Source: a virus. Taken from it: a DNA stretch of 64,000 nt. Below are positions 38,273-62,017 of this stretch, one piece after another (within the stretch, counting starts at the first letter, position 1; each line of letters opens with the position of its first letter). Made by a program: the position numbers and the translations under genes. The notes under the pieces were generated by a model that saw only the letters and a list, made by a program, of their open reading frames with translations, did not search any database and was not told the DNA's origin. The DNA lies in IMG/VR virus record IMGVR_UViG_3300049846_001037, positions 141,427-205,426 of that record; one strand, 5' to 3'.

Positions 38273-38290
38273 CTACTTAAATTTAAGTAA
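38273..38290. repeat. 18-bp dyad element, copy 1
   Basis: TACTTA-AATT-TAAGTA core. It lies about 315 bases from the next promoter and 44 bases from the terminator. Confidence 0.85.
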
Positions 38291-38333
38291 GCAGATGACC
38301 GGTCGCAGCAGATCCTCTGGATGTTCTCCCGTA

Positions 38334-38368
38334 AAGACAAAGACCCCGCCGAGGTTGGCAGGGTCTCT
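38334..38368 (-). terminator. Rho-independent terminator
   Basis: AGACCC/GGGTCT stem with a GCC/GG inner part and a T-rich tail. It closes the operon of the 112-residue gene. Confidence 0.75.
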
Positions 38369-38393
38369 GTGGGTGGGACGAGGTGGGGTGGTT

Positions 38394-38732
38394 CTACTTG
38401 GTGAGGTATCCATGCTTGGGGAGGTCGGTGGGGAGAGGCATGGAGAGCAGGGCAGAGATGGAAGGAACCTTCATCTTGCAGGGAGAGTGGGCGAGGTAGT
38501 CATACTTCTTGAACGCCAGTTCCTTGCCGTGGTGAGGGCAGTCCACGTAGTCGAAAGTGTAACCCTTCTTCTTGAGTTCGGCATGGAACAGGTCGAAGTC
38601 CTTCTTCGCTTGCTTGATGGCGGGGTCGCTGGGGTTCTGCTTGATGAGTTCATTGATTTCGTCCATTGCCATTGCGATAGCATGGGCAGACATCTTGGAA
38701 GCGATTGCCTTCTTCTCTTTGATGGTCAGCAT
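38394..38732 (-). CDS. Unknown helical protein
   Basis: A 112-residue protein, helical in its first 75 residues (KEKKAIASKMSAHAIAMAMDEI), with a CPHHGKEL motif that may bind metal. Family unknown. It has its own TTGACA promoter. Confidence 0.75.
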   Translation of the reverse strand: MLTIKEKKAIASKMSAHAIAMAMDEINELIKQNPSDPAIKQAKKDFDLFHAELKKKGYTFDYVDCPHHGKELAFKKYDYLAHSPCKMKVPSISALLSMPLPTDLPKHGYLTK

Positions 38733-38759
38733 GGTTTGTCTCCGAGAAGTGATATCTTT

Positions 38760-38788
38760 AATGTAACTTAGATGAGGGTTCTTGTCAA
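38760..38788 (-). promoter_or_regulatory. Sigma70-type promoter; upstream stop inside -35
   Basis: TTGACA, 17 bases, TACATT. The TGA stop of the upstream gene is part of TTGACA. Confidence 0.75.
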
Positions 38789-39009
38789 GGCATATTTAGG
38801 TCTTTGAACAGGAAGTCTTTGGGGAGTTTCCTGCCGCCGAGGTGGTCGTAGATGATGAGGCAAGGCAGGGACATGATGCCAGGCACGACGAAGGAGTTGA
38901 TGAGGAGGGTCATGGGCATGGAGAAGTGAAGATGCTGGTAGCAGATGTTCCCCACAGCGAACCAGATGAGGAAGAGGACCATGAGGAAGATGCGTTGTTT
39001 GTTGTTCAT
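38785..39009 (-). CDS. Small membrane protein
   Basis: A 74-residue protein with two hydrophobic helices (residues 6-24 and 33-52). The ATG follows TCAGGAG; the longer frame runs through the promoter. Its TGA lies within the -35 box of the next promoter. Family unknown. Confidence 0.76.
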   Translation of the reverse strand: MNNKQRIFLMVLFLIWFAVGNICYQHLHFSMPMTLLINSFVVPGIMSLPCLIIYDHLGGRKLPKDFLFKDLNMP

Positions 39010-39034
39010 GGTATTACTCCTGAGTGATGAGTAA

Positions 39035-39063
39035 AGTATAACAATAAAGATAGCACATGTCAA
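39035..39063 (-). promoter_or_regulatory. Sigma70-type promoter
   Basis: TTGACA, 17 bases, TATACT, without terminator or dyad in front. Confidence 0.8.
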
Positions 39064-39067
39064 GGGG

Positions 39068-39118
39068 TTATCTGCCGTTGACATCGGTCCAGTAGTCATC
39101 ATCGCAACGCTCGTCCAT
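39068..39118 (-). CDS. Very short frame, 16 residues
   Basis: MDERCDDDYWTDVNGR, starting one base after the stop of the upstream gene and ending a few bases from the next -35 box. No separate Shine-Dalgarno site is needed if translation is coupled. It may be real or a chance frame. Confidence 0.4.
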   Translation of the reverse strand: MDERCDDDYWTDVNGR

Positions 39119-39119
39119 G

Positions 39120-39326
39120 TTATTTCCCCCTCTTGTTGGCTTCATTGCGGAGTTTGGTCATGACTTCGAGGGCACGGGCAAGGATGGCGGCTTCGCTCTG
39201 ATGACCCAGCATGAAGACACCCAGCGAATGAACAGCATCCAACATCTCGTCATTGGGAATGGTGGGAATGCTTTGTTCCAGTTCCGCCAGCATCGCCATC
39301 TTCTCGTTGTAGACTTGGGTATCCAT
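39120..39326 (-). CDS. Unknown small helical protein
   Basis: A 68-residue helical protein (EKMAMLAELEQSIPTIPNDEML). AAGGAG precedes the ATG. Family unknown. It is the first gene after cassette 2. Confidence 0.74.
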   Translation of the reverse strand: MDTQVYNEKMAMLAELEQSIPTIPNDEMLDAVHSLGVFMLGHQSEAAILARALEVMTKLRNEANKRGK

Positions 39327-39352
39327 TGGGTTTCTCCTTAGTTGATAAAGTA

Positions 39353-39381
39353 ATTATACTAATAAAGATAGCACATGTCAA
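39353..39381 (-). promoter_or_regulatory. Cassette 2 promoter
   Basis: TTGACA, 17 bases, TATAAT: a consensus-quality promoter, 37 bases from the dyad. Confidence 0.88.
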
Positions 39382-39418
39382 GGGGGAGATGTTCGCCCGC
39401 TGCGAGGGAGGGGCGTTG

Positions 39419-39436
39419 TTACTTAAAGATAAGTAA
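39419..39436. repeat. 18-bp dyad element, copy 2
   Basis: Arms TTACTTA/TAAGTAA with AAGA in the centre. Confidence 0.88.
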
Positions 39437-39482
39437 GGAGTGCAGGGCTGCAGGATCTGGCTGCGATGAGGTTGGCACAGCA

Positions 39483-39511
39483 AAAGACCTTCCGTGTTAG
39501 GGAAGGTCTTT
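39483..39511 (-). terminator. Rho-independent terminator
   Basis: AAAGACCTTCC pairs with GGAAGGTCTTT, 46 bases from the dyad; it starts inside the last codons of the 59-residue gene. Confidence 0.88.
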
Positions 39512-39676
39512 GCGGGTCTTCTCTTTCTCTACCCTCTTGAGTATTTTGAGGGCGACTTGTTCTGCTTCTTCCAGCGTCATCAGAACCTTTTTCCTTACGT
39601 CATTCTTTTCTATCAGGCAGACATAAGGTTGTCGTAGACGTGGAAAGCGTATTTCTACTGTTTGTTTCTTTGGCAT
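39497..39676 (-). CDS. Unknown small basic protein
   Basis: A 59-residue basic protein (MPKKQTVEIRFPRLRQPY...) whose last codons run into the terminator hairpin. The inner ATG is chosen because the longer frame runs through the upstream gene. Family unknown. Confidence 0.7.
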   Translation of the reverse strand: MPKKQTVEIRFPRLRQPYVCLIEKNDVRKKVLMTLEEAEQVALKILKRVEKEKTRKDLP

Positions 39677-39683
39677 GGTGTCA

Positions 39684-39992
39684 TCAGAGTGGGATGGAGA
39701 GTTCGTGGATGAGGACTTCGGTTCCGCTTTGGAGGAGGATGATATCTTCGTCGGTTCCTCCTCTTGCCACCTTGTCCCAGCGAGAGCAGGTGCCGTGGTC
39801 GGGGTCATGCCAGTAGACCACATCGCCACGCTTTACCCTGTCTGTGGATTTGAGGCGGCGTTTGGGGCATTTGGAGCAGGGACCATCTTCGCCCAGTTCG
39901 GACTGCTTGACTTTGTTGCCACAGAGCGAGCAGTATTCTTCGCCCTGAGGGTCATAGTTCCGTTTGTGGGGTTGCTTCTTGTCGGAGTTCAT
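39684..39992 (-). CDS. Zinc-ribbon protein
   Basis: A 102-residue protein with CSLCGN and CSKCPKR about 18 residues apart, a treble-clef-type zinc ribbon, and a C-terminal half with VKRGDVVYWHDPDHG. GAGG precedes the ATG. Function unknown. Same operon as the ADP-ribosyltransferase-like gene. Confidence 0.75.
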   Translation of the reverse strand: MNSDKKQPHKRNYDPQGEEYCSLCGNKVKQSELGEDGPCSKCPKRRLKSTDRVKRGDVVYWHDPDHGTCSRWDKVARGGTDEDIILLQSGTEVLIHELSIPL

Positions 39993-39999
39993 GTCTGCC

Positions 40000-40629
40000 T
40001 CAGAGGACGATGACTTCTTTCTCGTTGCGACCACCGAGGTAAGCGAAGACTTTGCTCTTATCAATCTTGATGGTCTTCACTTTGCCCTGTTTGCCAAAGC
40101 GATTAGCGAACCAAGTTGCTTTGGTCTTAGAGAGCGAGTAAGACATTCCGTTAGGGGATTTGTCGTAGCCCCGATGGATGGTGAGGAAGTCAGGGAGATT
40201 GGCGAGTTCAAGGCGGTCCTCATCGCTCATAAAGTATTCTTTGTTGGGGACTTGAGCCGTGAGGAGTTTCTTCCAGTCCTTGATGTTCTGCCAGATGTTC
40301 TCCGAGTCAATCCAGATGGAGCCGAGCAGACCCCAATAAGTCTTAGGCTCAGTAATGCGGTTGCGGATTTTGTTGAAAGCCCACAGACGATACGGACGCT
40401 CATGCCAGAAGACATAGGCATGGAAATCTCCTTCGGCAAGGCATTTGTCACACGCTTCCTGCTTCTGCTTCAACTGCTCGTTGTAGAGGGCGTTATGCTG
40501 AGGGGTGTAGAAGATTTCCTGCACCAAAGGATGCTGAATCGCCTGCCCGAAAGGTCCGTCCATCAGACAGACGTAGAGTTCGGGGGCGAGTTCTTCTTTA
40601 CGGGCGAGGACTTCCTGAAAGTTAATCAT
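40000..40629 (-). CDS. Predicted ADP-ribosyltransferase (R-S-E type)
   Basis: A 209-residue protein whose C-terminal third has the three motifs of R-S-E ADP-ribosyltransferases in order: an arginine in IHRGY (153), S-x-S in GMSYSLS (163-165) and E-x-E in RNEKEVIVL (203-205). T4 Alt/ModA/ModB enzymes of this class modify host RNA polymerase and other proteins early in infection; the target here is unknown. There is no Shine-Dalgarno site, and the ATG lies six bases after a TATACT, so the mRNA is probably leaderless. It is the first gene after dyad 3. Confidence 0.75.
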   Translation of the reverse strand: MINFQEVLARKEELAPELYVCLMDGPFGQAIQHPLVQEIFYTPQHNALYNEQLKQKQEACDKCLAEGDFHAYVFWHERPYRLWAFNKIRNRITEPKTYWGLLGSIWIDSENIWQNIKDWKKLLTAQVPNKEYFMSDEDRLELANLPDFLTIHRGYDKSPNGMSYSLSKTKATWFANRFGKQGKVKTIKIDKSKVFAYLGGRNEKEVIVL

Positions 40630-40635
40630 GTAGTA

Positions 40636-40664
40636 AGTATAACCTATTAAGCATAGCTTGTCAA
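40636..40664 (-). promoter_or_regulatory. Cassette 3 promoter
   Basis: TTGACA, 17 bases, TATACT, immediately before the ADP-ribosyltransferase-like gene; 47 bases from the dyad. Confidence 0.88.
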
Positions 40665-40711
40665 GACGTGGGGCAAATAGACATGAGTGGCTGGTGATCC
40701 CTGGGAGCTAG

Positions 40712-40729
40712 TTACTTACATTTAAGTAG
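40712..40729. repeat. 18-bp dyad element, copy 3
   Basis: Arms TACTTA/TAAGTA with CATT in the centre. Confidence 0.85.
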
Positions 40730-40778
40730 GAAGAGGAGGTGGCTGCAGATCCGGTCATCTGGGTGGTTGGCACAAGCA

Positions 40779-40808
40779 AAAGGGACTCCGATGTTTTGGA
40801 GTCCCTTT
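40779..40808 (-). terminator. Rho-independent terminator
   Basis: AAAGGGACTCC pairs with GGAGTCCCTTT, followed by TTGC. Confidence 0.88.
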
Positions 40809-40813
40809 GGGTC

Positions 40814-41236
40814 TTAGTAGATTTCGAGTTCGTCTAGTTCTTGGGAAGTTGGGGTGGAGAATTCCTTGAGGGAGTAGCGTCTTCCTGAGTCTCTGGGCGG
40901 GTTCATGCCGCTTGTTTCTTGGACTCGGTTCCATGTGGCTATGAGTTGTTCGCCGTAGGGGCGGGACTCCACAAGGACTTTGAAAGTATTACCTTCGGAG
41001 GATTGAACAGTCATGGTCTGGAGGGTAGCGACAATGTATCCGCCTTCCCAGTTCCATGAATGATTCTTTGCTTTGGTCATCACTCTGCCCTTGCAGTCGA
41101 AGGAGTCGCCCTTGAAGAAGACGACGGCACCATGACGGGCTTTGATGCGTCGGACTTCGGTTGGTGTAACTTCCCTGTGTTTGCCTTGAGGGGGCAAAGG
41201 AAGTTCGAGGCAGTCGGGGTGGATGTTGAGTCCCAT
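40814..41236 (-). CDS. Unknown protein
   Basis: A 140-residue protein with Pro-rich N-terminus (LELPLPPQGKHR) and a beta-rich domain (GAVVFFKGDSFDCKGRV) suggesting a small barrel. AGGAGA precedes the chosen ATG. Family unknown. Confidence 0.74.
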   Translation of the reverse strand: MGLNIHPDCLELPLPPQGKHREVTPTEVRRIKARHGAVVFFKGDSFDCKGRVMTKAKNHSWNWEGGYIVATLQTMTVQSSEGNTFKVLVESRPYGEQLIATWNRVQETSGMNPPRDSGRRYSLKEFSTPTSQELDELEIY

Positions 41237-41267
41237 GACTATTTTCTCCTGCGGCGGCGATAAATCA

Positions 41268-41600
41268 TTAGCAAAACTCCCCATCGAGGAAGAAGTTGCC
41301 TGATTGGTCGTTCCACTCATTCTCCCGTGATGCCCTCTGGAATTTGGCACCAATCTGTTTCCTGTCCCTGATGAGTTTGAGCAGGTCTACTGGGGTGGAG
41401 ACATCCGAGCCATTGTCGTTGGTGAGAGTATAACCTTCTTTTGCCAGCCGCTCAACACGGGCGTACCACGAGCGGACATCCACAACGCCGTTAGCCTTGT
41501 CGCCACGGAAGGTGAATTGCCAGCCTGCTGATGACTTGCCCAGATGAACGGGCTCACCAGAGACGAAGACTTCGGGAGTCATGTAGAAGTTCGTGCCCAT
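41268..41600 (-). CDS. Unknown MGTNFYM-type protein
   Basis: A 110-residue protein beginning MGTNFYMTPEVF and containing HLGKSSAGWQFTF, a combination I recall from small uncharacterised phage proteins. No function is known. It is the second gene before the 140-residue gene in the same operon. Confidence 0.75.
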   Translation of the reverse strand: MGTNFYMTPEVFVSGEPVHLGKSSAGWQFTFRGDKANGVVDVRSWYARVERLAKEGYTLTNDNGSDVSTPVDLLKLIRDRKQIGAKFQRASRENEWNDQSGNFFLDGEFC

Positions 41601-41602
41601 GT

Positions 41603-41872
41603 TCAGCCCTGAAAAGAGATGCCTTCGGGGTGGCTGTAGAGCGTTTCGCTCATCCAGCGTCCCATTCCCTTATACCGCTTGTCTTCGTCATCGACAAGGG
41701 CAAAAGAGGTCAGGACGTAGGACCACTTGTTGTTCATGAGGTTGCGGCTCTGCTCGTTCCACTTGGCGATGAGGGCTTCGCCAACCTTCTGGGAGACGAC
41801 GAGGATCTGCTCGTTGAAGGTCTCGTTGGTCGGGGTGTGGGTGTTGGTGTAGTTCATCAGGAGCATCTGCAT
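41603..41872 (-). CDS. Unknown protein
   Basis: An 89-residue protein, N-terminal Thr/Asn-rich then helical (EALIAKWNEQSRNL). Family unknown. Two bases separate it from the next gene. Confidence 0.72.
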   Translation of the reverse strand: MQMLLMNYTNTHTPTNETFNEQILVVSQKVGEALIAKWNEQSRNLMNNKWSYVLTSFALVDDEDKRYKGMGRWMSETLYSHPEGISFQG

Positions 41873-41875
41873 GGC

Positions 41876-42043
41876 TTAGTCCTCCTCTTCCGCTTCGATG
41901 TCCACTTCGGGGTCTTCGAGCGTCAGATTGTTCTTGTTGACCTTCATCTTCTCCCACTTCTTCATGGCGTCCTTCTCGTTCTTGGCGGTGACGGTCACTT
42001 GTTCGGTGGCGAGGTAACGGACGGTGAGGTTGAAGGTCTTCAT
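41876..42043 (-). CDS. Unknown small protein, 55 residues
   Basis: A short frame MKTFNLTVRYLATEQVTVTAK... with a beta-hairpin N-terminus, a helix, and an acidic tail ending EAEEEED. AAGGAGA precedes the ATG; it is the first gene after cassette 4. Function unknown. Confidence 0.75.
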   Translation of the reverse strand: MKTFNLTVRYLATEQVTVTAKNEKDAMKKWEKMKVNKNNLTLEDPEVDIEAEEED

Positions 42044-42069
42044 GGCGGTTCTCCTTGAGTGATGACTAC

Positions 42070-42098
42070 ATCATAGTCTAATAAAGCTAGCTTGTCAA
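42070..42098 (-). promoter_or_regulatory. Cassette 4 promoter
   Basis: TTGACA, 17 bases, TATGAT; 36 bases from the dyad. Confidence 0.85.
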
Positions 42099-42134
42099 GA
42101 CCGAGGTGAGCTGCGAGGGATCCCCGTGAGCTGT

Positions 42135-42152
42135 TTACTTAAAGATAAGTAA
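42135..42152. repeat. 18-bp dyad element, copy 4
   Basis: Arms TTACTTA/TAAGTAA with AAGA in the centre, as in copy 2. GATGTCCGGTC follows. Confidence 0.88.
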
Positions 42153-42192
42153 GAAGATGTCCGGTCATCAGAAGTTGGTTGGTGGCACAAGC

Positions 42193-42222
42193 AAAAGCCC
42201 CGCCGTGTTAGGGCAGGGCTTT
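42193..42222 (-). terminator. Rho-independent terminator
   Basis: AAAGCCC/GGGCTTT stem with GCC/GGC inner part and a TTTTGC tail. Confidence 0.85.
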
Positions 42223-42240
42223 GCTTGGGATTACTGGGTT

Positions 42241-42480
42241 TTAGTAGGAGATGGACACATCGAAGTCGCCGTGTTCGTTGGTGGCTTCGAGGAGGGACTG
42301 GAGGGTTTCCTTGTCTTCGGGGTTGAGGTTGCGGAGGGTCTTGTTCAGTTCGTCCACTTTCTGCTTGGAGATGTAGTAGAGCCCGTTGTCGTTCATCGGG
42401 AAATGCTTCTCGATGAAGTCGGCGGAGGAGGAGCCGTTCAGCAGGCTGTGGTGTTCGATGCGATAGATGCTGACGGACAT
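42241..42480 (-). CDS. Unknown small protein
   Basis: A 79-residue protein (MSVSIYRIEHHSLLNG...) with an acidic helix. Family unknown. GGAG precedes the ATG. Confidence 0.73.
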   Translation of the reverse strand: MSVSIYRIEHHSLLNGSSSADFIEKHFPMNDNGLYYISKQKVDELNKTLRNLNPEDKETLQSLLEATNEHGDFDVSISY

Positions 42481-42490
42481 GGCGTTCTCC

Positions 42491-43015
42491 TTATCGGTGA
42501 ATGTTCATGGGAAGATTCTTCTTCAAGCGTTCATTGACCACCGCCGTCAAGAACACTTTCCCGAACCCTGACTTCGGGACCACCTTTTGTATCAGTTTCT
42601 TTTCTCCTTGCATGGTGATGAAGGTATCCACCTTGAAGTGTTCTTCCATTTTAGCCTTTGAGCCGTAGACTTCTACCACAGCCCCTTGCAGAACCTTGGT
42701 CAGTTCCTCATGCTTCTCATTGATAATATCACATTCCCTCTTATTAGGGAAGTTCTTCATGGGGAAGGAGATGCTATATTCTCCTTCGACAGAGTTAACA
42801 CCGCCAAAGAGGCGAAGGGACTTGCGGAAGATGAAGTCATCCAGTTTAGCCAGTTTGGATTCCAGCAGGTTGATGCCGTAGATGACGTAGGCGTTGGCGA
42901 TGGGCAACACGATGGAAAGCACCGCCGCCAGAGCCAAGCCCGAAGCCATCGCCGTCTTACCCATAGCAAGGGCGGCAAGGCAGAGGAACGAGAAGAAGAT
43001 GAAGGGGCTTCTCAT
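42491..43015 (-). CDS. Membrane protein with soluble domain
   Basis: A 174-residue protein with two membrane helices (residues 2-18 and 23-48) and a ~110-residue soluble domain. That domain contains KRECDIINEKHEELTK, similar to KSECDIIIRILGEM of the next gene upstream, which suggests a shared motif. Coupled as ATGA. Confidence 0.75.
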   Translation of the reverse strand: MRSPFIFFSFLCLAALAMGKTAMASGLALAAVLSIVLPIANAYVIYGINLLESKLAKLDDFIFRKSLRLFGGVNSVEGEYSISFPMKNFPNKRECDIINEKHEELTKVLQGAVVEVYGSKAKMEEHFKVDTFITMQGEKKLIQKVVPKSGFGKVFLTAVVNERLKKNLPMNIHR

Positions 43016-43197
43016 GGCTTCACCTCATTGAAGGGAATGATTTCTGCCTTGATGTTCATTTCACCCAGTATTCTGATGATAATATCACATTCACTTTTTG
43101 GCAACGGGTTGATATCTTCAATAATAGTGCTAGGCTCCCCATCGAAGTCGTGGTAAGCAAAGGTGCCATCTTCGAGAGTGTAGCGTATCTGGAACAT
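43012..43197 (-). CDS. Unknown small protein with ECDII motif
   Basis: A 61-residue protein whose C-terminal PLPKSECDIIIRIL motif resembles the neighbour's PNKRECDIINEKHEEL. Possibly a paralogous domain. First gene after cassette 5. Confidence 0.73.
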   Translation of the reverse strand: MFQIRYTLEDGTFAYHDFDGEPSTIIEDINPLPKSECDIIIRILGEMNIKAEIIPFNEVKP

Positions 43198-43220
43198 GGA
43201 GTTCTCCTTGAGTTAATGTA

Positions 43221-43249
43221 ATTATATAAAATTAAAGATAGCTTGTCAA
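43221..43249 (-). promoter_or_regulatory. Cassette 5 promoter
   Basis: TTGACA, 17 bases, TATAAT; 44 bases from the dyad. Confidence 0.88.
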
Positions 43250-43293
43250 TGGGGTTGGAGCAGGTGAGCTGGCTGGTGATCATGGGGAGCTGT

Positions 43294-43311
43294 TTACTTA
43301 CATTTAAGTAG
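43294..43311. repeat. 18-bp dyad element, copy 5
   Basis: Arms TACTTA/TAAGTA with CATT in the centre, as in copy 3. Confidence 0.85.
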
Positions 43312-43358
43312 GGAGGGAGCCCGCTGCAGATCTGCGAGTGGGTCGTCGTGAAAAGCAA

Positions 43359-43385
43359 AAGCCCCTCTAGAGTTCAGAGGGGCTT
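43359..43385 (-). terminator. Rho-independent terminator
   Basis: AAGCCCCTCT pairs with AGAGGGGCTT, followed by TTGC. Confidence 0.88.
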
Positions 43386-43408
43386 CGGCGTTTAAGGCTG
43401 GAGATGGT

Positions 43409-44290: not shown

Positions 44291-44319
44291 AGTATAACTA
44301 ATTGGCCGATGCTTGTCAA
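44291..44319 (-). promoter_or_regulatory. Cassette 6 promoter
   Basis: TTGACA, 17 bases, TATACT; 44 bases from the dyad. Confidence 0.88.
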
Positions 44320-44363: not shown

Positions 44364-44381
44364 TTACTTAAATTTAAGTAG
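44364..44381. repeat. 18-bp dyad element, copy 6
   Basis: Arms TACTTA/TAAGTA with AATT in the centre. Confidence 0.88.
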
Positions 44382-44427
44382 GCGGCCGTCTTCCTCGCAG
44401 CGGGCTGGGACATCTCGGCGCAGCAAA

Positions 44428-44455
44428 AAGCCCACACCTGCTGGGGTATGGGCTT
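44428..44455 (-). terminator. Rho-independent terminator
   Basis: AAGCCCA/TGGGCTT stem with CACC/GGGG inner pairing and a TTTTTG tail. Confidence 0.82.
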
Positions 44456-45586: not shown

Positions 45587-45615
45587 AGTATAACTTTCTG
45601 GGAGACCCTTGTCAA
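45587..45615 (-). promoter_or_regulatory. Cassette 7 promoter
   Basis: TTGACA, 17 bases, TATACT; 47 bases from the dyad. The tRNA-like element starts eight bases after the -10 box. Confidence 0.88.
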
Positions 45616-45662: not shown

Positions 45663-45680
45663 TTACTTAAATTTAAGTAA
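45663..45680. repeat. 18-bp dyad element, copy 7 (perfect)
   Basis: TTACTTAAATTTAAGTAA, a perfect 18-base palindrome, preceded by GATCCCCGGGAGCTGG. Confidence 0.92.
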
Positions 45681-45715: not shown

Positions 45716-45764
45716 CAAAAATAAGCCCCCTTATTTTATATAAAACTATTAGATTATAAGGGGG
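45716..45764 (-). terminator. Terminator hairpin at the border of the HNH gene
   Basis: CCCCCTTAT pairs with ATAAGGGGG around a 21-base AT-rich loop, with a T-rich tail on the minus strand. The loop holds the promoter motif of the HNH gene. Confidence 0.6.
45735..45755 (+). promoter_or_regulatory. TTTATA-N9-TAGATT promoter-like motif
   Basis: Plus-strand copy of the left-half motif, 14 bases before the HNH start codon. Confidence 0.5.
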
Positions 45765-45769: not shown

Positions 45770-46273
45770 ATGGAAACTAAAAAGTGTTCTAAATGCCATA
45801 TAACAAAGTCTATTGATAACTTTTACGCTTCACACGTTGACAGAACATGTATTGATTGCCACAGAAAAAGGAACAAGGAATACAAGAAATTACACCCAGA
45901 GATAATTAGGGCTCAAAAGCAAAGATATAAAGAAAGGGGCAAGGGGGCAAAGGCATACGCCAGATCGATGAGTAAACTAGAGTTCAGGTTTAGAAGGTGG
46001 GAAATAAATGCCAAGAAAAGAGGAATAGTATGGGACTTAACATTCGATGATATTAAAGATATGCCTATGACATGTTTTTACAGTGAAATGGAACTTACTC
46101 TAAAACCAAATCAATTAAATACAATCTCTCTAGATAGAAAAAACAGTGATTTAGGCTATACAAAAACCAACGTTGTATTCGCCTCTGCAAAAATCAACAG
46201 AATGAAAAGCGACATGAGCATTAACGATTTTTTAATGCTATGTAAACTTGTCACAAATAAATGCCCTGGCTGA
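45770..46273 (+). CDS. HNH-type homing endonuclease
   Basis: A 167-residue plus-strand gene. An N-terminal zinc knuckle (CSKC, then CIDC) is followed by a basic linker and a C-terminal HNH-like nuclease signature with SLDRKNSDLGYTKTN and a final INRMKS. The gene is clearly more AT-rich than its neighbours and lies against the general direction, as expected of a mobile endonuclease gene that entered a cassette between two operons. GGGGG precedes the ATG. It ends at a terminator hairpin. Confidence 0.88.
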   Translation: METKKCSKCHITKSIDNFYASHVDRTCIDCHRKRNKEYKKLHPEIIRAQKQRYKERGKGAKAYARSMSKLEFRFRRWEINAKKRGIVWDLTFDDIKDMPMTCFYSEMELTLKPNQLNTISLDRKNSDLGYTKTNVVFASAKINRMKSDMSINDFLMLCKLVTNKCPG

Positions 46274-46292
46274 TTTTTACGTCAGCCAGGGC
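46263..46292. terminator. Bidirectional terminator hairpin
   Basis: GCCCTGGCTGA pairs with TCAGCCAGGGC; the left arm overlaps the end of the HNH gene. It would stop transcripts from either side, but T-runs are short. Confidence 0.65.
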
Positions 46293-47963: not shown

Positions 47964-47992
47964 AGTCTAACCTGCGGAAGTCACGTCGTCAA
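47964..47992 (-). promoter_or_regulatory. Cassette 8 promoter
   Basis: TTGACG, 17 bases, TAGACT; 28 bases from the dyad. Confidence 0.75.
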
Positions 47993-48020: not shown

Positions 48021-48038
48021 CTACTTAAATTTAAGTAG
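48021..48038. repeat. 18-bp dyad element, copy 8
   Basis: A perfect dyad (CTACTTAAATTTAAGTAG), extended to 20 bases by flanking C/G. Confidence 0.92.
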
Positions 48039-48080
48039 GTACTGCAGAGCTGCAGGGCGGCACTGCAGGGCGCAAAGAAA

Positions 48081-48104
48081 AAGCCCCCGTGTTGCTGGGG
48101 GCTT
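48081..48104 (-). terminator. Rho-independent terminator overlapping a stop codon
   Basis: AAGCCCCC pairs with GGGGGCTT followed by TTTCTTT. The stop codon of the coiled-coil gene touches the stem. Confidence 0.88.
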
Positions 48105-50614: not shown

Positions 50615-50643
50615 AGTATAACTAATTAATGATAGCTTGTCAA
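50615..50643 (-). promoter_or_regulatory. Cassette 9 promoter
   Basis: TTGACA, 17 bases, TATACT; 70 bases from the dyad. Confidence 0.88.
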
Positions 50644-50713: not shown

Positions 50714-50731
50714 CTACTTAAAAATAAGTAA
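50714..50731. repeat. 18-bp dyad element, copy 9
   Basis: Arms TACTTA/TAAGTA with AAAA in the centre. Confidence 0.85.
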
Positions 50732-50784
50732 GGGCAGCAGGTGGCAGCGGGCGGAGGTGGCAGGCTGCTCTGGGCGCAAAGAAA

Positions 50785-50808
50785 AAGCCCTCCGTTTCCA
50801 GAGGGCTT
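50785..50808 (-). terminator. Rho-independent terminator
   Basis: AAGCCCTC pairs with GAGGGCTT, followed by TTTCTTTGC. Confidence 0.87.
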
Positions 50809-50833
50809 CTTCTTGCTTGGGTTGGCGAGGGTG

Positions 50834-51034
50834 TTAGTGGCGGCGGAGGTTCATGCCGAGCCGCTTCATGGCGACCAGGAGCGGGACGTACTTGAGGTTG
50901 GAGCCGTTCTTGCTGTTGACGCTCTTGAGGACCGCCTTGAGGCTCTTGGTGGGCGTGACCATCGCCACCAGCTTCTGGATGCGCTCCTTGGTGTAGATGG
51001 CGGGGCGACCACGCTTGCTCGTCTGCTTCTTCAT
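50834..51034 (-). CDS. Small predicted DNA-binding protein (RGRPAIYT type)
   Basis: A 66-residue basic protein. KRGRPAIYTKERIQKL combines an AT-hook-like RGRP with the Y-T-x-E pattern shared with the proteins at 19.9 and 55.1 kb; a helix-turn-helix may follow. It lies within the dyad-rich region and is a candidate regulator, by inference only. Confidence 0.75.
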   Translation of the reverse strand: MKKQTSKRGRPAIYTKERIQKLVAMVTPTKSLKAVLKSVNSKNGSNLKYVPLLVAMKRLGMNLRRH

Positions 51035-53603: not shown

Positions 53604-53632
53604 ATGATAAACTAATTCCCTGAACTTGTCAA
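53604..53632 (-). promoter_or_regulatory. Cassette 10 promoter
   Basis: TTGACA, 17 bases, TATCAT; 25 bases from the dyad. Confidence 0.85.
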
Positions 53633-53657: not shown

Positions 53658-53675
53658 TTACTTAAATTTAAGTAG
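53658..53675. repeat. 18-bp dyad element, copy 10
   Basis: Arms TACTTA/TAAGTA with AATT in the centre; several CTGCAG sites follow. Confidence 0.88.
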
Positions 53676-53720
53676 TCTTCAGGATCCTGCAGAGCTCTGC
53701 AGCTGCAGCCTTAAGCAAGA

Positions 53721-53747
53721 AACCCCATCAAGCTTTCTGATGGGGTT
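53721..53747 (-). terminator. Rho-independent terminator holding a stop codon
   Basis: AACCCCATCA pairs with TGATGGGGTT, followed by TTCTTGC. The stop of the upstream gene lies in the stem. Confidence 0.87.
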
Positions 53748-54820: not shown

Positions 54821-54848
54821 ATTGTATTACATCTGGCTGGTTCGTCAA
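54821..54848 (-). promoter_or_regulatory. Cassette 11 promoter
   Basis: TTGACG, 16 bases, TACAAT; 58 bases from the dyad. Confidence 0.75.
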
Positions 54849-54906: not shown

Positions 54907-54924
54907 TTACTTAAATTTAAGTAG
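54907..54924. repeat. 18-bp dyad element, copy 11
   Basis: Arms TACTTA/TAAGTA with AATT in the centre. Confidence 0.88.
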
Positions 54925-55075
54925 AGACTCGCCTGCAGCTAAGCCCGGATATACTGCAGTGCGCTTAAGAGCCCCATTGGGAAATAAGGGTTTTCAGACG
55001 CCTAGCTGCAGGGATCTGCAGATATGTGCCGCTAATCTCCTGGGCACGAGCTTAGTACGCCTGGGCACAACAAAA
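54925..55075. other. Longest cassette spacer
   Basis: About 150 bases between dyad 11 and its terminator, where other cassettes have 40-53. It has several CTGCAG sites and a repeated CTGGGCAC, but no gene and no clear fold. Confidence 0.5.
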
Positions 55076-55099
55076 AAGCTCCCCAGCTTGAGGGAGCTT
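55076..55099 (-). terminator. Rho-independent terminator
   Basis: AAGCTCCC pairs with GGGAGCTT, followed by TTTTTTG. Confidence 0.87.
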
Positions 55100-55127
55100 T
55101 CTTGTGCGGCTACGGGCTTACGCTTTC

Positions 55128-55370
55128 TTAGGCTACTACGGCTTCTGGCTTCTTAGCCGCATTTGCCTTTTTAATTTCGGCGTATTTCTTGGGTATCTTC
55201 AACCCATAACGCCTGATGGCTCGATTGATGGAGACATAGGGCCATTTATGACCGCCTTCCATCTTCTCGGTCTTCTCTCGGCATTGCTCCTTGATGGGCT
55301 TGCCAAGAGTCTCCTTAATTCTTATCATTTCCTTGATGTCATCTTCCGTGTAACATATGGGGCGAGGCAT
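55128..55370 (-). CDS. Small predicted DNA-binding protein (MPRPICYT type)
   Basis: An 80-residue basic protein starting MPRPICYTEDDIKEM, the third member of the RP-x-x-(Y/F)T-x-E family. A second helical part (SINRAIRRYGLKIPKKY) could be the recognition helix. AAA-rich end. Regulator role inferred. Confidence 0.75.
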   Translation of the reverse strand: MPRPICYTEDDIKEMIRIKETLGKPIKEQCREKTEKMEGGHKWPYVSINRAIRRYGLKIPKKYAEIKKANAAKKPEAVVA

Positions 55371-56958: not shown

Positions 56959-56968
56959 GGCTGGCTCC

Positions 56969-57505: not shown

Positions 57506-57508
57506 GGT

Positions 57509-57805
57509 CTACTCCTGAGAAAAGTCGATGCTGATGTTCTTGATGTTGCGGAACGCCTTCCACAAGGCATTCTCCTGCTTCTCGACCATCTCACGGGAGC
57601 CACGCAGAGTCAACCCCAGATTGATGTCGTAGGTGCGGTTCTTCGTCTGCTGGAAGTTGAAGCCCCCACCCGTGACCCTGAACTTCTTGGGGAACCCCTT
57701 GGGCAGACGGCTGTTGACCCGCTCACGAGCCTTCTGCTCGAAGGTCTCGTCATCGAAACGCTGTTCGAAAGGGATCTTGATGGTGACATCCACGATGGTC
57801 TTCAT
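57509..57805 (-). CDS. Unknown protein
   Basis: A 98-residue beta-rich protein (MKTIVDVTIKIPFEQRFD...). Family unknown. Same operon of small genes, three bases from neighbours. Confidence 0.73.
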   Translation of the reverse strand: MKTIVDVTIKIPFEQRFDDETFEQKARERVNSRLPKGFPKKFRVTGGGFNFQQTKNRTYDINLGLTLRGSREMVEKQENALWKAFRNIKNISIDFSQE

Positions 57806-57808
57806 GGC

Positions 57809-58057
57809 TTACTCTCCCTCAGGATGCAGGAACTCTTGGATGTCGTCCGCCTTCCAGTCGCCCTGCTTCTTAGCCCTGATGCGGAATGCCTTCTCGTTGA
57901 GACGTTGGTTGCTGACGGGCATGGAGACCCCAGTCAGGGAAGTCCTCTCAGCGAAGCCCTCGTTCATCTCCGCCACAGCATCATCCAGCGTGATGGTCTT
58001 GGGTATGGGCTTGGTGGAGAGGATTTCCACCTGAACGACGGTCCTGTAGAAAGCCAT
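57809..58057 (-). CDS. Unknown small protein
   Basis: An 82-residue protein with VVQVEILSTKPIPKTITLDDAV, a strand-loop-helix start I recall from small phage proteins. Function unknown. Confidence 0.73.
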   Translation of the reverse strand: MAFYRTVVQVEILSTKPIPKTITLDDAVAEMNEGFAERTSLTGVSMPVSNQRLNEKAFRIRAKKQGDWKADDIQEFLHPEGE

Positions 58058-58058
58058 G

Positions 58059-58316
58059 TCAGACTCCGGAGAAGGGCTTGCAACGGGTGACTCTGGTCAG
58101 TTTTCTGCCACCAGTCAACTCGGTGATGAGTTCGACTTCACCCTCTAAGGAGTGAGTGGAACCGAACTGAGGAACTGAGGCGTGGGACTTCAAGGAGCGA
58201 GTCCACACGAAGATGTTGCCTTCACGGTCTTCGAACATGAGGGTGTAGTTGTGGGCATTCACAGCCCCTCGTGTCTCCTTGACGTAGACCACCTTACCCG
58301 TGAAGATTGCCTTCAT
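58059..58316 (-). CDS. Unknown beta-rich protein, OB-like
   Basis: An 85-residue protein of alternating strands (AIFTGKVVYVKETRG ... LEGEVELITEL) consistent with a small OB-type barrel. No family recognised; nucleic-acid binding is possible. Confidence 0.7.
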   Translation of the reverse strand: MKAIFTGKVVYVKETRGAVNAHNYTLMFEDREGNIFVWTRSLKSHASVPQFGSTHSLEGEVELITELTGGRKLTRVTRCKPFSGV

Positions 58317-58318
58317 GG

Positions 58319-58624
58319 CTACACCAGAGAGCAGGCAACACGGTGGGCGGCCAGCAAGTCGGCAGCACCCTCATCGCCATCACCGTTGGTGTAATCGTAC
58401 TTCTTCTCCAGGTTCTTGGACCATTGGCGGTAGAACGCCATGTCGGGCAGGTCATCGTGTCCCGTGAAGCAGGTCTCGTCGTCATCAGCGCCAGGGCAGG
58501 TCGAGAGCAGTTCCACCTCAGGCTTTTCCTCCTGCCCCAGCTCCCAGCCCATCTGCTTGAGCAAACGGACCATCTCGTTGGCGACCACGGTCTCGTTCTT
58601 GCTGAGTTTGTAGATGACCTGCAT
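58319..58624 (-). CDS. Unknown acidic protein
   Basis: A 101-residue acidic helical protein (VVANEMVRLLKQMGWELGQEE). GGAGG before this ATG decides the start. Family unknown. Confidence 0.74.
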   Translation of the reverse strand: MQVIYKLSKNETVVANEMVRLLKQMGWELGQEEKPEVELLSTCPGADDDETCFTGHDDLPDMAFYRQWSKNLEKKYDYTNGDGDEGAADLLAAHRVACSLV

Positions 58625-58652
58625 GGCTTCCTCCTGCTCTTGAGTTGACTCC

Positions 58653-58681
58653 ATACTAACTTAAAGAGTACTACTTGTCAA
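58653..58681 (-). promoter_or_regulatory. Sigma70-type promoter; upstream stop inside -35
   Basis: TTGACA, 17 bases, TAGTAT. The TGA of the upstream gene is part of TTGACA. Confidence 0.8.
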
Positions 58682-58944
58682 GCCACCACGGTCAGCCCCC
58701 GCTTCATCTGCTTCTCCCACTCATCCGAATAGGCTTTGGGACGCAACAGGTTCTTTTGCTTGGGATGACCATTGCGATAAGCCCAACGGCAGACATTCTC
58801 AGCATAGTTGCGACCATTACGCCTGACACCCATCTTCCCCAGAAACTTCTCCTCAGCATGTCGAGGGTTCTTGGCTCGTAGGGGCTTATGAGTCCAACAG
58901 CACATGTCGCTGTGGATGATGGCGAAGACATAGTAACGGGGCAT
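58678..58944 (-). CDS. Unknown protein
   Basis: An 88-residue protein beginning MPRYYVFAIIHSDMCCW with a basic middle (MGVRRNGRNYAENVCRW). GGAG precedes the ATG. First gene after cassette 12. Family unknown. Confidence 0.73.
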   Translation of the reverse strand: MPRYYVFAIIHSDMCCWTHKPLRAKNPRHAEEKFLGKMGVRRNGRNYAENVCRWAYRNGHPKQKNLLRPKAYSDEWEKQMKRGLTVVA

Positions 58945-58966
58945 GGGGTTCTCCAAGTGATGTCTT

Positions 58967-58995
58967 AGTATAACTTCCCAGCAGCCACTCGTCAA
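58967..58995 (-). promoter_or_regulatory. Cassette 12 promoter
   Basis: TTGACG, 17 bases, TATACT; 48 bases from the dyad. Confidence 0.83.
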
Positions 58996-59043
58996 CCGTC
59001 GGCCGCAGCCAACTGCCGTCGTTGGGATCTGGGAGCCCCTTGT

Positions 59044-59061
59044 CTACTTAAATTTAAGTAA
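59044..59061. repeat. 18-bp dyad element, copy 12
   Basis: Arms TACTTA/TAAGTA with AATT in the centre; GATGTCCGGTC follows as in copy 4. Confidence 0.88.
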
Positions 59062-59109
59062 GCGCCGATGTCCGGTCGTTGGGCGATGAGCTCTACCCAG
59101 AAAACAGAA

Positions 59110-59134
59110 AAGCCCCACCCTTTCGGATGAGGCT
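59110..59134 (-). terminator. Rho-independent terminator
   Basis: AGCCCCA/TGAGGCT stem with one mismatch, a CCCTTTCGG loop and a TTTTCTG tail. Confidence 0.78.
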
Positions 59135-59197
59135 CTTCTGTGCACCCGGCGTACCACCCTATGCTGATCCATGGGTCATAGGGAACCCGTCTTACAC

Positions 59198-59452
59198 TTA
59201 ATACCGATGCTTGATGGCGGCGAATTGGGCGAAGGTGAGGGTAGGCTTGATGCCCTTCAACTGGCAGTAAGCCTTCCACAACTCTCTGTCGCAGGTGTAT
59301 TCGCCAGGAGTCGGCTCACACTCGATGTTGTCGATGAACTGAGCCGCTGTGTGGGAGTCGATGTCCTCCACACGCTCGAAGCCCCAGATGTCTTTGAGGT
59401 AATTGCGGCTCTCCCTCGAAAGGGGAAAAGCCGTCTTGAGGGTGGCGGACAT
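59198..59452 (-). CDS. Unknown protein
   Basis: An 84-residue helical protein with WKAYCQLKGIKPTLTFAQFAA near its end; the phrase TFAQW/F recurs in the protein at 60.3 kb (MTFAQWQKWV). Family unknown. Confidence 0.73.
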   Translation of the reverse strand: MSATLKTAFPLSRESRNYLKDIWGFERVEDIDSHTAAQFIDNIECEPTPGEYTCDRELWKAYCQLKGIKPTLTFAQFAAIKHRY

Positions 59453-59462
59453 CTTTGACTCC

Positions 59463-59561
59463 TTAGTGGTTGAAGTGCTGTACCACCGCTGCCCCGATGA
59501 CGAACAGGATGGCGATGACGATGACCAGTTCGACCAAGGTGAAGCCTCGTTGGTTACGCAT
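59463..59561 (-). CDS. Prepilin-like microprotein, 32 residues
   Basis: MRNQRGFTLVELVIVIAIL... has the type IV prepilin signal: a short positive leader, glycine before the cut site, phenylalanine at +1, glutamate at +5, then a ~20-residue hydrophobic helix. Nothing but FNH follows the helix, so there is no pilin head domain. The stop lies ten bases from the next start. It could be taken up by the host prepilin peptidase and pilus machinery and disturb it; that is inference. No upstream GGAGG is seen; translation is probably coupled to the gene before it, whose stop lies two bases away. Confidence 0.7.
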   Translation of the reverse strand: MRNQRGFTLVELVIVIAILFVIGAAVVQHFNH

Positions 59562-59563
59562 GA

Positions 59564-59776
59564 CTACCTCGAAGGGGAACGATGGACTTGCTGACGCCAG
59601 ATGTGGGCGGTGATGGTTCGGTCAGCCTCCATCTTCTTGTCCAGAAGCTTGTTGTACTTCCTCCGTCCATAGGCTTGGGCGGCGATGAGCTTGCGGCAGA
59701 GAGCAGCCAGCCTCTTGACATTGCGAGGCGTAGGGTTCTTGAGAGCCGCTTGGATGACTGCCTCTTGCTGCGTCAT
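59564..59776 (-). CDS. Unknown basic helical protein
   Basis: A 70-residue basic helical protein (RNVKRLAALCRKLIAAQAYGRRK). Family unknown. It is directly upstream of the prepilin-like frame. Confidence 0.72.
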   Translation of the reverse strand: MTQQEAVIQAALKNPTPRNVKRLAALCRKLIAAQAYGRRKYNKLLDKKMEADRTITAHIWRQQVHRSPSR

Positions 59777-59788
59777 GTCCGACTCCTA

Positions 59789-59974
59789 CTAGATGAGCTT
59801 CTTGCGGCGGAGTTTGGTCCGCAGGTTCTTGAGAGCCTTGATCTGGTTGCGGAGCTGAACGCCCTCCAGGCTGTGACCCAGATCGTGGATGCTGACGTTC
59901 TGGAGGTAGGTCTTGTACTTCTTCTCCAAGACCTTGATCTCTTCGTTGATGACATCGCTCACACGGAGTCCCAT
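59789..59974 (-). CDS. Unknown helical protein
   Basis: A 61-residue helical protein (VINEEIKVLEKKYKTYL) with a basic end (LRRKKLI). Probably a small coiled coil. Function unknown. Confidence 0.7.
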   Translation of the reverse strand: MGLRVSDVINEEIKVLEKKYKTYLQNVSIHDLGHSLEGVQLRNQIKALKNLRTKLRRKKLI

Positions 59975-59977
59975 GAC

Positions 59978-60313
59978 TTACCTCAAGAGGGATTGGAGTT
60001 GCGTCATTTCCTCGGTCAGAGTTTCATGGCGGCGTTTGGGACTGTTCCAAGAATCAAGATAGTCCCTGTCCACCAGAGCCGCAGCAGCATCCTTGACGGC
60101 TCGTTGGATATGCTTCTGAGGAACCTCAACCTTCATCTTGAGAAGGTCCAAGACCACACCAACCAAGACAGTTGGATTGTAGTCGTTTGCCTTGATCTTG
60201 TCAAGCGCCCTGCTCAGGTTGTTCTCAGTCAGAGATGCCCTGTTGCGACGGAAGTAGTCCATCTCGTCTTGGACATCATCGCAGGCAGTGCTCTGTTCGC
60301 CCCAGGCTCCCAT
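59978..60313 (-). CDS. DUF4259-like protein
   Basis: A 111-residue protein beginning MGAWGEQSTACDDVQDEM, like the MGAWG-x-G-x-F-x-N-D start of DUF4259 proteins, though the rest is less similar. Function unknown. Confidence 0.6.
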   Translation of the reverse strand: MGAWGEQSTACDDVQDEMDYFRRNRASLTENNLSRALDKIKANDYNPTVLVGVVLDLLKMKVEVPQKHIQRAVKDAAAALVDRDYLDSWNSPKRRHETLTEEMTQLQSLLR

Positions 60314-60316
60314 GAC

Positions 60317-60745
60317 TTACCTCAGATGCTTCGGTTGGCGGTTGACCCACTTCTGCCATTGAGCGAAGGTCATGTCCGCAGGCAGGTTGTGGAAGGCGAG
60401 GTACTTCTCGGTGATGCTGTGGTCATCGGGCCAGACTTCCTTGGGCTCCTCTTCACGGTTCTCGATGAAGAGCGCCACCCAGCCCAGAGGCAACTGGCTG
60501 ATGTCCTTGATGCCCTTGGGCTCCCCATCGTACATCTGCTTGATGTACTTGATCTCCGATGGGGTCAGCGTGGTCGTCACCTTGTTGCGAGAGTGGAGCT
60601 GCTTCTTGAAGGCTTCGATCTGAGCCTTCTTCTTCTTGGCGTCTTTCCGCAGATGCTTGACGGTCTTCCGCAGCTCGTCCATGATCTGACCAGCGAGGTC
60701 ATCGTCGGGCTTGGCAATGTGGACAGCGTGGTTTTGGTGAGGCAT
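60317..60745 (-). CDS. Unknown helical protein
   Basis: A 142-residue protein with a basic coiled region (RKDAKKKKAQIEAFKKQL) and a C-terminal MTFAQWQKWVNRQ, similar to a segment of the 59.2 kb protein. GGAGG precedes the chosen ATG. Family unknown. Confidence 0.74.
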   Translation of the reverse strand: MPHQNHAVHIAKPDDDLAGQIMDELRKTVKHLRKDAKKKKAQIEAFKKQLHSRNKVTTTLTPSEIKYIKQMYDGEPKGIKDISQLPLGWVALFIENREEEPKEVWPDDHSITEKYLAFHNLPADMTFAQWQKWVNRQPKHLR

Positions 60746-60770
60746 GGCGTTCCTCCTTGATGTTGAACCC

Positions 60771-60799
60771 ATCATAAACCAAACGCCTTAACTTGTCAA
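60771..60799 (-). promoter_or_regulatory. Sigma70-type promoter; upstream stop inside -35
   Basis: TTGACA, 17 bases, TATGAT. The TGA of the 52-residue gene is part of TTGACA. Confidence 0.82.
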
Positions 60800-60954
60800 T
60801 AGTAGCCCTTCAGCCTAATGAGAGACCAGCGAAGTTTATATAGATTGGTGAGGGCTTCATCAATGGTCTTGATGAACACAGGGCATCCAGCAGTCCTCTT
60901 GAGTCTCTGCATCTTCGTTATCTCTTTGCTGACGATTTCTCCATTGGCTGTCAT
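60796..60954 (-). CDS. Unknown small protein, 52 residues
   Basis: A frame MTANGEIVSKEITKMQRLK... coupled to the TilS gene as ATGA and ending in the next promoter's -35 box. Helical and basic. Function unknown; might be an accessory of TilS, by position only. Confidence 0.7.
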   Translation of the reverse strand: MTANGEIVSKEITKMQRLKRTAGCPVFIKTIDEALTNLYKLRWSLIRLKGYY

Positions 60955-61562
60955 TTGACCTCCAATGCCCTGACCTTCTTTGCGATGACTTTATGCATCC
61001 CAGGGTTGATGAGCAGAGCCTCTGGAACAATGCCATGTCGAACCCTATTACGAGCATGACCCATATCCTCGTTGGTCATGTCCTCAGTCCAAGGAACATG
61101 CTTGTTCTCGGCATAGATGATCAGGTCAGATTTTGTGGTAAGGAGGAAAGGACGGACGACATTCTTATTGCGGTAGGGGATGAGTTTGGGAACCCCATGA
61201 CAGGCACCCATCAGCCATGTCTCAATCTGGTCATCGAGATGATGGGCGGTGATGACTGGGACTTCAAGGCTATGGAAAAACTTGTAGCGTTCATCTCGCC
61301 AGTATTCTTCCCAAGACTTGCTCTTAGGCTTGTCCGAAGAAATCCTCTGAGCAATCATCCCAGTCAGTCCCATCTGGGTGAGGAAGTCCAGAGCCTTGGC
61401 GGAAGTCTCAGTGCCGTGGTCAAAGAAGACAGGGGCAATACGCCGCTTGCCATTGACCCCATGCTTGAGGAAGTGATAGACGGCCATGGAGTCTACGCCA
61501 CCAGAGACGGCAACGTAATGCAACTGGTCATATTGAGGAAGGCTTCCGAGAATCTTTAGCAT
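60951..61562 (-). CDS. tilS: TilS-like tRNA(Ile)-lysidine synthase
   Basis: A PP-loop ATPase: SGGVDSM near residue 20, ITAHHLDDQIETWLM, VRPFL, then DMTNEDMGHARNRVRH, the signature of TilS. TilS changes C34 of tRNA-Ile(CAU) to lysidine, so that it reads AUA instead of AUG. A tRNA-Ile2 gene with CAU lies ~2 kb upstream, which supports the call. At 203 residues it has the catalytic domain without the C-terminal tRNA-binding domains of long TilS. A GTG nine bases upstream is an alternative start. Confidence 0.85.
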   Translation of the reverse strand: MLKILGSLPQYDQLHYVAVSGGVDSMAVYHFLKHGVNGKRRIAPVFFDHGTETSAKALDFLTQMGLTGMIAQRISSDKPKSKSWEEYWRDERYKFFHSLEVPVITAHHLDDQIETWLMGACHGVPKLIPYRNKNVVRPFLLTTKSDLIIYAENKHVPWTEDMTNEDMGHARNRVRHGIVPEALLINPGMHKVIAKKVRALEVK

Positions 61563-61903
61563 AGCGCCCACACCGTCCTGTCTGCCCGCATCTCCACCAA
61601 CCTAGCCCTCTCAGCCTTCTCGTTGGTGTCAGCGAAGTAGAAGTGGTCAGCCTTGTAAGGGTTGTACTTCACCTGCCGCAGTTTGGCTTCGGAGCTCAAC
61701 ACTACACCAAACTCAGGTATCTTGCCAATGACGAAGGCGTGGACATTCTTACGCTTCTGCTCAAGGACTCGCTTATGCCCACCCGGACGAACACGGAATT
61801 CCACATTCGTCACAACCACAGACTTCTCATGCCCCACAACCTTGCCCCCAACCATCAGAGACCAGATGGACTTATGCAGGTTGTAGTAGATGTAGGTCTT
61901 CAT
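61556..61903 (-). CDS. Unknown protein
   Basis: A 115-residue beta-rich protein with basic middle (RPGGHKRVLEQKRKN). First gene of the TilS operon, with AGGAGG before the ATG. Possibly a nucleic-acid-binding partner; family unknown. Confidence 0.74.
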   Translation of the reverse strand: MKTYIYYNLHKSIWSLMVGGKVVGHEKSVVVTNVEFRVRPGGHKRVLEQKRKNVHAFVIGKIPEFGVVLSSEAKLRQVKYNPYKADHFYFADTNEKAERARLVEMRADRTVWALC

Positions 61904-61925
61904 GTCGTCCTCCTTGAGATGGGTT

Positions 61926-61954
61926 AATATAACTTAAGGAGAAAGACATGTCAA
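61926..61954 (-). promoter_or_regulatory. Cassette 13 promoter for the TilS operon
   Basis: TTGACA, 17 bases, TATATT; 45 bases from the dyad. Confidence 0.87.
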
Positions 61955-61999
61955 ACTCCTATCTGCGATCCTGCAGGGACATGGCACCACCTCCTTTCT

Positions 62000-62017
62000 C
62001 TACTTAAATTTAAGTAA
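62000..62017. repeat. 18-bp dyad element, copy 13
   Basis: Arms TACTTA/TAAGTA with AATT in the centre. Confidence 0.88.

Follow-up and report, generated by a model that had tools for sequence, protein, structure and literature searches.

The window analysed here, a 64,000-nucleotide stretch covering positions 141,427 to 205,426 of virus record IMGVR_UViG_3300049846_001037, contains thirteen copies of a symmetric DNA site, TACTTA-N4-TAAGTA (hereafter the dyad), whose arms are unchanged in every copy and which is confined to the borders of early operons. The best explanation of the dyad is an operator that acts on the lead promoter of every early operon, set inside a cassette that marks the operon boundary, a reading drawn from sequence and put at an even chance. 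The window forms the final 64 kb of a linear 205,426-bp record, whose right end may be incomplete. Terminators and promoters were predicted by simple scans over gene calls made in this analysis, and the term early is inferred from sigma70-type promoters and small genes rather than from expression measurement.

The dyad and its copies

The exact unit TACTTANNNNTAAGTA was found thirteen times in a scan of the 64-kb window, in the places and with the invariant arms that an earlier sequence-only reading had reported, while no copy is expected from 100 shuffled controls and 0.003 copies are expected from a Markov model. Numbered from the left, the dyads with the centre AATT are 1 (38274–38289), 6 (44365–44380), 7 (45664–45679), 8 (48022–48037), 10 (53659–53674), 11 (54908–54923), 12 (59045–59060), and 13 (62001–62016); AAGA is the centre of 2 (39420–39435) and 4 (42136–42151), CATT of 3 (40713–40728) and 5 (43295–43310), and AAAA of 9 alone (50715–50730), which are likewise the centres first reported. 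No further site with one or two mismatches is present in the window, and the remaining 141 kb of the record holds no copy, in agreement with the earlier statement that none lies left of 38 kb. The full-genome search that the same reading had proposed thus places every copy between early operons, within 24 kb of the 205-kb record, and none is spread through the left arm.

The conserved unit is slightly longer than first described. The base outside each TACTTA arm is a pyrimidine in 26 of 26 half-sites, giving an 18-bp symmetric motif, YTACTTANNNNTAAGTAR (YTACTTA-NNNN-TAAGTAR). The arm with its pyrimidine is the same in all 26 half-sites, whereas the centre, of which three of the four positions vary, and the flanks are variable; the information per column is 2.0 bits in the arms and approximately 1 bit at the flanking pyrimidine or purine, and falls to background further out. 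Since the arms are without any change while the flanks are mostly unalignable between copies, the arms appear to be held by selection, as in a site bound by a dimer. Selection for binding by a dimer very probably maintains the dyad, and the earlier proposal of a dimer-bound site fits the 18-bp symmetry, invariant arms, variable centre, and diverged flanks.

Chance, or a recent simple duplication of one cassette, would be compatible with the likeness of some terminator sides (48022/50715 and 39420/42136), but it is hardly credible, as it is contradicted by the expectation of 0.003 copies and by flanks that have largely diverged beyond alignment around unchanged arms. Single-strand folding of the dyad sites was no stronger than that of shuffles, giving no sign of a DNA hairpin or cruciform; an Rfam search offered no RNA explanation, and a literature text search returned no published operator matching the dyad. 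The dyad may resemble the NarL-type TACYNMT 7-2-7 arrangement.

Placement between terminator and promoter

All operons bordered by dyads lie on the minus strand, and each of the 13 dyads stands at an operon end, behind a terminator or its remnant. Intrinsic terminators were predicted on the minus strand at 38335–38366, 39478–39510, 40773–40808, 42188–42222, 43353–43385, and 44422–44455 (cassettes 1 to 6), at 48075–48104, 50777–50810, and 53715–53747 (cassettes 8 to 10), and at 55067–55102, 59103–59136, and 62056–62093 (cassettes 11 to 13). In cassette 7, a terminator-like long-loop hairpin with a U-tract on the same strand (45726–45764) was missed by the scan and picked by eye. The distance from terminator end to dyad edge is 36–46 bp in 12 of 13 cassettes (mean 41, standard deviation 3), a figure that includes this imperfect hairpin. 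At the thirteenth copy (54908), the good terminator is 143 bp off, and a decayed-looking hairpin (54970–54992) occupies the usual place.

On the other side, predicted minus-strand sigma70-type promoters follow dyads 2 to 13 at 39353–39381 (gap from dyad edge to −35 box, 38 bp), 40636–40664 (48 bp), 42070–42098 (37 bp), 43221–43249 (45 bp), 44291–44319 (45 bp), 45587–45615 (48 bp), 47964–47992 (29 bp), 50615–50643 (71 bp), 53604–53632 (26 bp), 54821–54848 (59 bp), 58967–58995 (49 bp), and 61926–61954 (46 bp). The gap is thus 26–71 bp in 12 of 13 (standard deviation 12) and 45–49 bp in six, and the −35 box is TTGACG rather than TTGACA at dyads 8, 11, and 12. The sequence-only reading had given twelve terminators at 40–53 bp and twelve TTGACA promoters at 25–70 bp, often 44–48 bp; both elements are found in the numbers claimed, while the terminator distance is shorter, the promoter distance differs by a base pair, and three promoters depart from TTGACA. 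Terminator and promoter are 83–134 bp apart in most dyad borders. Several terminators left of 38 kb have a promoter no more than approximately 21 bp beyond them, and the longer early border is therefore taken as a distinct design.

Genome-wide, 27 intergenic terminators were predicted on the minus strand. Twelve stand in dyad borders, the imperfect one at 45726–45764 was added by eye as a thirteenth, and the 13 terminators left of 38.3 kb are all without a dyad. In the early region, the dyad is present at 12 of 13 borders that combine terminator and promoter and at none of the 10 early promoters without an upstream terminator (Fisher p ~1e-5). At least ten strong early promoters lack it, some with the same TTGACAAGCTA start as the dyad promoters. 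The dyad is not a general mark of early promoters; it belongs to the lead promoter of the operon or to the preceding terminator. Joint control of the whole early region through the dyad, as suggested earlier, is not supported, since those ten or more promoters and the border at 63.69 kb do without it.

Operator or insulator

The cassette would read, in order, as a terminator, a GC-rich linker of approximately 41 bp, the 18-bp palindrome, a second GC-rich linker of 26–71 bp, and a promoter of the host-sigma70 type. A dimeric protein of the phage or its host would bind each dyad and, placed approximately 90 bp upstream of the start site, act on the lead promoter of the operon. The early operons would most plausibly be switched as a group, with internal promoters escaping. 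Position alone does not part an association with the lead promoter from one with the terminator. The gaps between dyad and promoter cluster near one helical face at a preset period of 10.5 bp (R 0.60, p 0.01; p 0.02 after merging related flanks), and this apparent phasing leans to the promoter; the gaps between terminator and dyad show no clustering at that period.

The dyad might instead serve as an insulator, where the bound site backs up the terminator and stops read-through polymerase ahead of the next promoter, in the manner of a stoperator-like roadblock. All 13 dyads lie behind a terminator or its remnant, including the one at 38274, and the spacing to the terminator is tighter than that to the promoter (standard deviation 3 vs. 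12). However, the dyad is missing from the border at 63.69 kb and from those in other parts of the genome, and it is symmetric, unlike known stoperators, which are asymmetric and follow the direction of transcription (PMC6550527). Insulation is considered unlikely, and is ranked second after the operator.

Several observations weigh against the operator. The leftmost dyad (38274), at the left end of the early region, has a terminator but lacks a nearby promoter, which leans to the terminator association; the sole early terminator-plus-promoter border without a dyad is that at 63.69 kb, in which the two elements almost adjoin; and the helical phasing of the promoter gaps is gone when the period is left free (p 0.47). 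No helix-turn-helix family is among the top 25 Pfam/PHROGs families listed for 111 right-hand proteins, and two small basic early proteins (50834–51034 and 55128–55370) yielded structure models of low confidence, too poor for structure search. The two look distantly alike, with 16 identical columns, and may be DNA binders.

The phage itself is a myovirus, judged by its tail sheath, with nearly all genes on the minus strand. It encodes a phrog_675 terminase, a DnaE-type polymerase (phrog_405), RecA, a DnaB-like helicase, and two sigma factors, and its early-type region, from 38 kb to the record end, consists of small genes of mostly unassigned function. No match to the tyrosine integrase family PF00589 was found in the genome, although a diverged fold would escape such a search. 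The two sigma factors, together with the lack of a tyrosine integrase match, make a timed switch of early genes plausible. An N6/N4 DNA methylase gene (24293–25009, plus strand) is one of the two confident plus-strand genes of the window, and a second methylase of the N6/N4 family is encoded elsewhere in the genome.

Plasmid global regulators such as KorB have about a dozen palindromes, and a dimeric protein with a role other than regulation, such as DNA looping or condensation, partition, replication start, or that of a host nucleoid protein, would also fit a multi-copy symmetric AT site amid GC-rich DNA. Its probability is rated as small, given the strict placement between terminator and promoter with one dyad per border; in addition, no tyrosine integrase was found, and a partition system was not noticed, though no direct search for one was made.

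Linkers and mosaic borders

The dyad flanks have a GC content of 0.61–0.63, compared with 0.46 in other early intergenic DNA, and are enriched in CTGCAG (14 copies vs. 1.7 expected) and GATCC (15 vs. 3.4 expected). The GC-rich flanks with recurrent words noted in the sequence-only reading are therefore real in these respects, while GATGTCCGGTC, which it had also listed as recurrent, is exact in two flanks only. Related flanks occur on the same side at equal dyad offset (right of 40713, 43295, and 45664) and also on opposite sides at equal dyad distance (right of 39420, left of 44365, and right of 53659). When the terminator side and the promoter side are each taken singly, similarity is greater between neighbouring borders than between distant ones. 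The similarity matrices of the two sides are uncorrelated (Mantel r 0.09 to 0.10, p ~0.24). Each border thus seems to be a mosaic with its joint close to the dyad, not a copy of a shared cassette, and duplication of a single cassette is not supported by this test. The idea of one cassette with fixed geometry is weakened likewise, as the two sides have separate ancestries and the gap to the promoter is variable.

Within the border of dyad 7 lies a plus-strand gene of HNH/endonuclease VII type (45770–46273; phrog_1035, E 5e-26), with a GC content of 0.35 against 0.49–0.54 around it and a strong hairpin (46257–46292) at its end. It looks like a recently arrived homing-type gene. Mosaic flanks, flank words on opposite sides, and this seemingly foreign gene support operon exchange at the borders, which would serve, or have served, as joints in the way that promoter early stem-loops (PeSLs) do in T4-type phages. 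The earlier suggestion of a unit of module exchange gains from the mosaic flanks and the inserted gene, and exchange is compatible with the operator and with the insulator alike.

Exchange could also be the whole function, with identical border sequence allowing operon swaps by recombination and no regulator needed. The mosaic flanks, swapped sides, and inserted HNH gene are consistent with this, as is the precedent of PeSLs in T4-type phages cited in PMC4503421. However, selection for homology should keep the centre too, which varies, and should not favour dyad symmetry, and 16–18 bp is short for homologous recombination; a joint without a regulator is thus ranked third and regarded as improbable.

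Palindrome shortage in early coding DNA

Palindromes of 4 and 6 bp are strongly depleted in the coding DNA of the early region (37880–63700). Those of 6 bp reach 0.23 of the dinucleotide-shuffle expectation, compared with approximately 0.55–0.6 in the rest of the genome, and number 53 against 207 expected by synonymous shuffling. A natural reading of this shortage is restriction avoidance. Not one CGCG occurs in any of the coding sequence examined across the whole record, where synonymous shuffling predicts approximately 180 copies, and this suggests that a restriction or methylation target is being avoided. In the linkers around the dyads, 6-bp palindromes reach 1.55 of expectation. CTGCAG, found 14 times in 1.1 kb of linker and three times in the other 24 kb, makes up 14 of the 27 linker palindromes, and without it the linkers are near expectation; because the excess is due to this one word, the safe statement is that the linkers escape the palindrome shortage.

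Other carriers and an analogous phage

Scans of IMG/VR for the exact 16-mer and for the dyad plus TTGACA gave 40 and 49 stretches, respectively, every one single-copy, and none of the records found has a dyad array. These stretches were rejected as true carriers, being mostly in AT-rich context and read as chance. Among 84,980 prokaryote genomes (GTDB), there was one match, also read as chance, and no genome with more than one dyad at this promoter spacing. A scan by promoter sequence proved unspecific as a route to other carriers, and megablast of the early region against phages and plasmids gave no match. Terminase relatives (55–81% identity) are fragments without an early region; one of 88 kb is syntenic with the mid-genome and stops short of it.

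A distant phage, IMGVR_UViG_3300033463_000025 (G001; 143,758 bp), is linked by one early protein with 35% identity, and its protein similarity to the present phage is weak. Its palindrome ATTTTGCAAAAT occurs in seven copies against 0.12 expected, six of them clustered at 110–118 kb, and together with one-mismatch variants it lies between terminators and TTGACA promoters at approximately eight of 13 borders. The two phages share minus-strand early operons with a palindrome between terminator and TTGACA promoter, but that of G001 differs in sequence, is AT-rich and fuzzier, and often occurs as two per border, 57 bp apart. This different palindrome fits the idea of independent versions, which the sequence-only reading had raised in proposing an independent PeSL with an added dyad; a relative carrying the dyad itself was not found. 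At 93–120 kb, G001 (L066–L073) has a repeated AT-rich border unit, CAGAAAAA...ATTTTTCAAAAT...TTTTTCTG, often paired 57 bp apart, and a conserved A/T-rich stretch resembling an UP element lies directly 5' of each TTGACA.

Among 93 loci of at least 10 kb fetched for other reasons, two have a dyad repeated five or six times. In IMGVR_UViG_3300037400_001874 (L236), approximately 35 TTGACA promoters lie within 11 kb, with CCCGGGC in many spacers, and the palindrome TGGTATTATAATACCA covers the −10 box at five promoters, a conventional operator position; these palindromes are likely the operator set of another phage. IMGVR_UViG_3300028048_000061 (L113) has six copies of the palindromic GCATTATACCGTATAA, promoter- or operator-like, near gene starts. 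Repeated dyads are not rare in phages; their placement between terminator and promoter is less usual.

If the dyad is an operator, it offers a ready bait for the regulator that times the early genes of a large phage, in a group for which no described regulator was found here. If the borders are exchange joints, they would give a swappable stock of small early genes with the expression of each operon intact. The analogue in G001 makes both ideas testable by comparison. As a broader and doubtful proposition, the early regions of large phages may be split into insulated operons by palindromic boundary elements, specific to each phage and with a dedicated binding protein, which would both time the operons and fix the joints for their gain, loss, or swap; the present phage and G001 would then be two independent inventions.

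Comparison with known systems

In the SPbeta phage, a 15-bp motif recurs approximately ten times in intergenic promoter regions; this repeated element, SPBRE, is bound by MrpR, and its prediction from sequence preceded the discovery of that protein by 24 years (PMC10516654). The dyad is likewise a repeated site in intergenic promoter regions of one phage. Unlike SPBRE, a prophage repressor site, it lies 26–71 bp upstream of the −35 box and at operon borders only, in a phage where no integrase was found. The stoperators of Cluster A mycobacteriophages are regulator sites present in many copies per genome, most of them off promoters, which act on elongation (PMC6550527; PMC9283540). The dyad shares the many copies of a putative regulator site in one genome; stoperators, however, are asymmetric 13-bp sites, oriented and genome-wide, whereas the dyad is an 18-bp palindrome confined to 24 kb.

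The closest likeness is to PeSLs. Their original descriptions in T4-type phages are reportedly those of Arbiol in 2010 and Comeau in 2014, and PMC4503421 presents them as composite promoter-terminator motifs of these phages. As in PeSLs, a terminator stem-loop and an early promoter, both present in 12 cassettes, are repeated in the gaps between small early genes, in a plastic region with signs of gene exchange at the units; the sequence-only reading was right to see a composite border of this kind. Unlike PeSLs, there is no compact conserved composite motif, as terminator and promoter stand well apart in most borders with a palindrome between them; the two sides are not inherited together; and the carrier is outside the T4 superfamily by its terminase and polymerase. 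Since the compact motif and the T4-type carrier are both wanting, the border is a variant of the PeSL and not a member. By analogy, it would work like PeSLs in location and probably in gene exchange, and the array thus appears to resemble known PeSL-style shuffling borders, from which the added palindromic dyad sets it apart.

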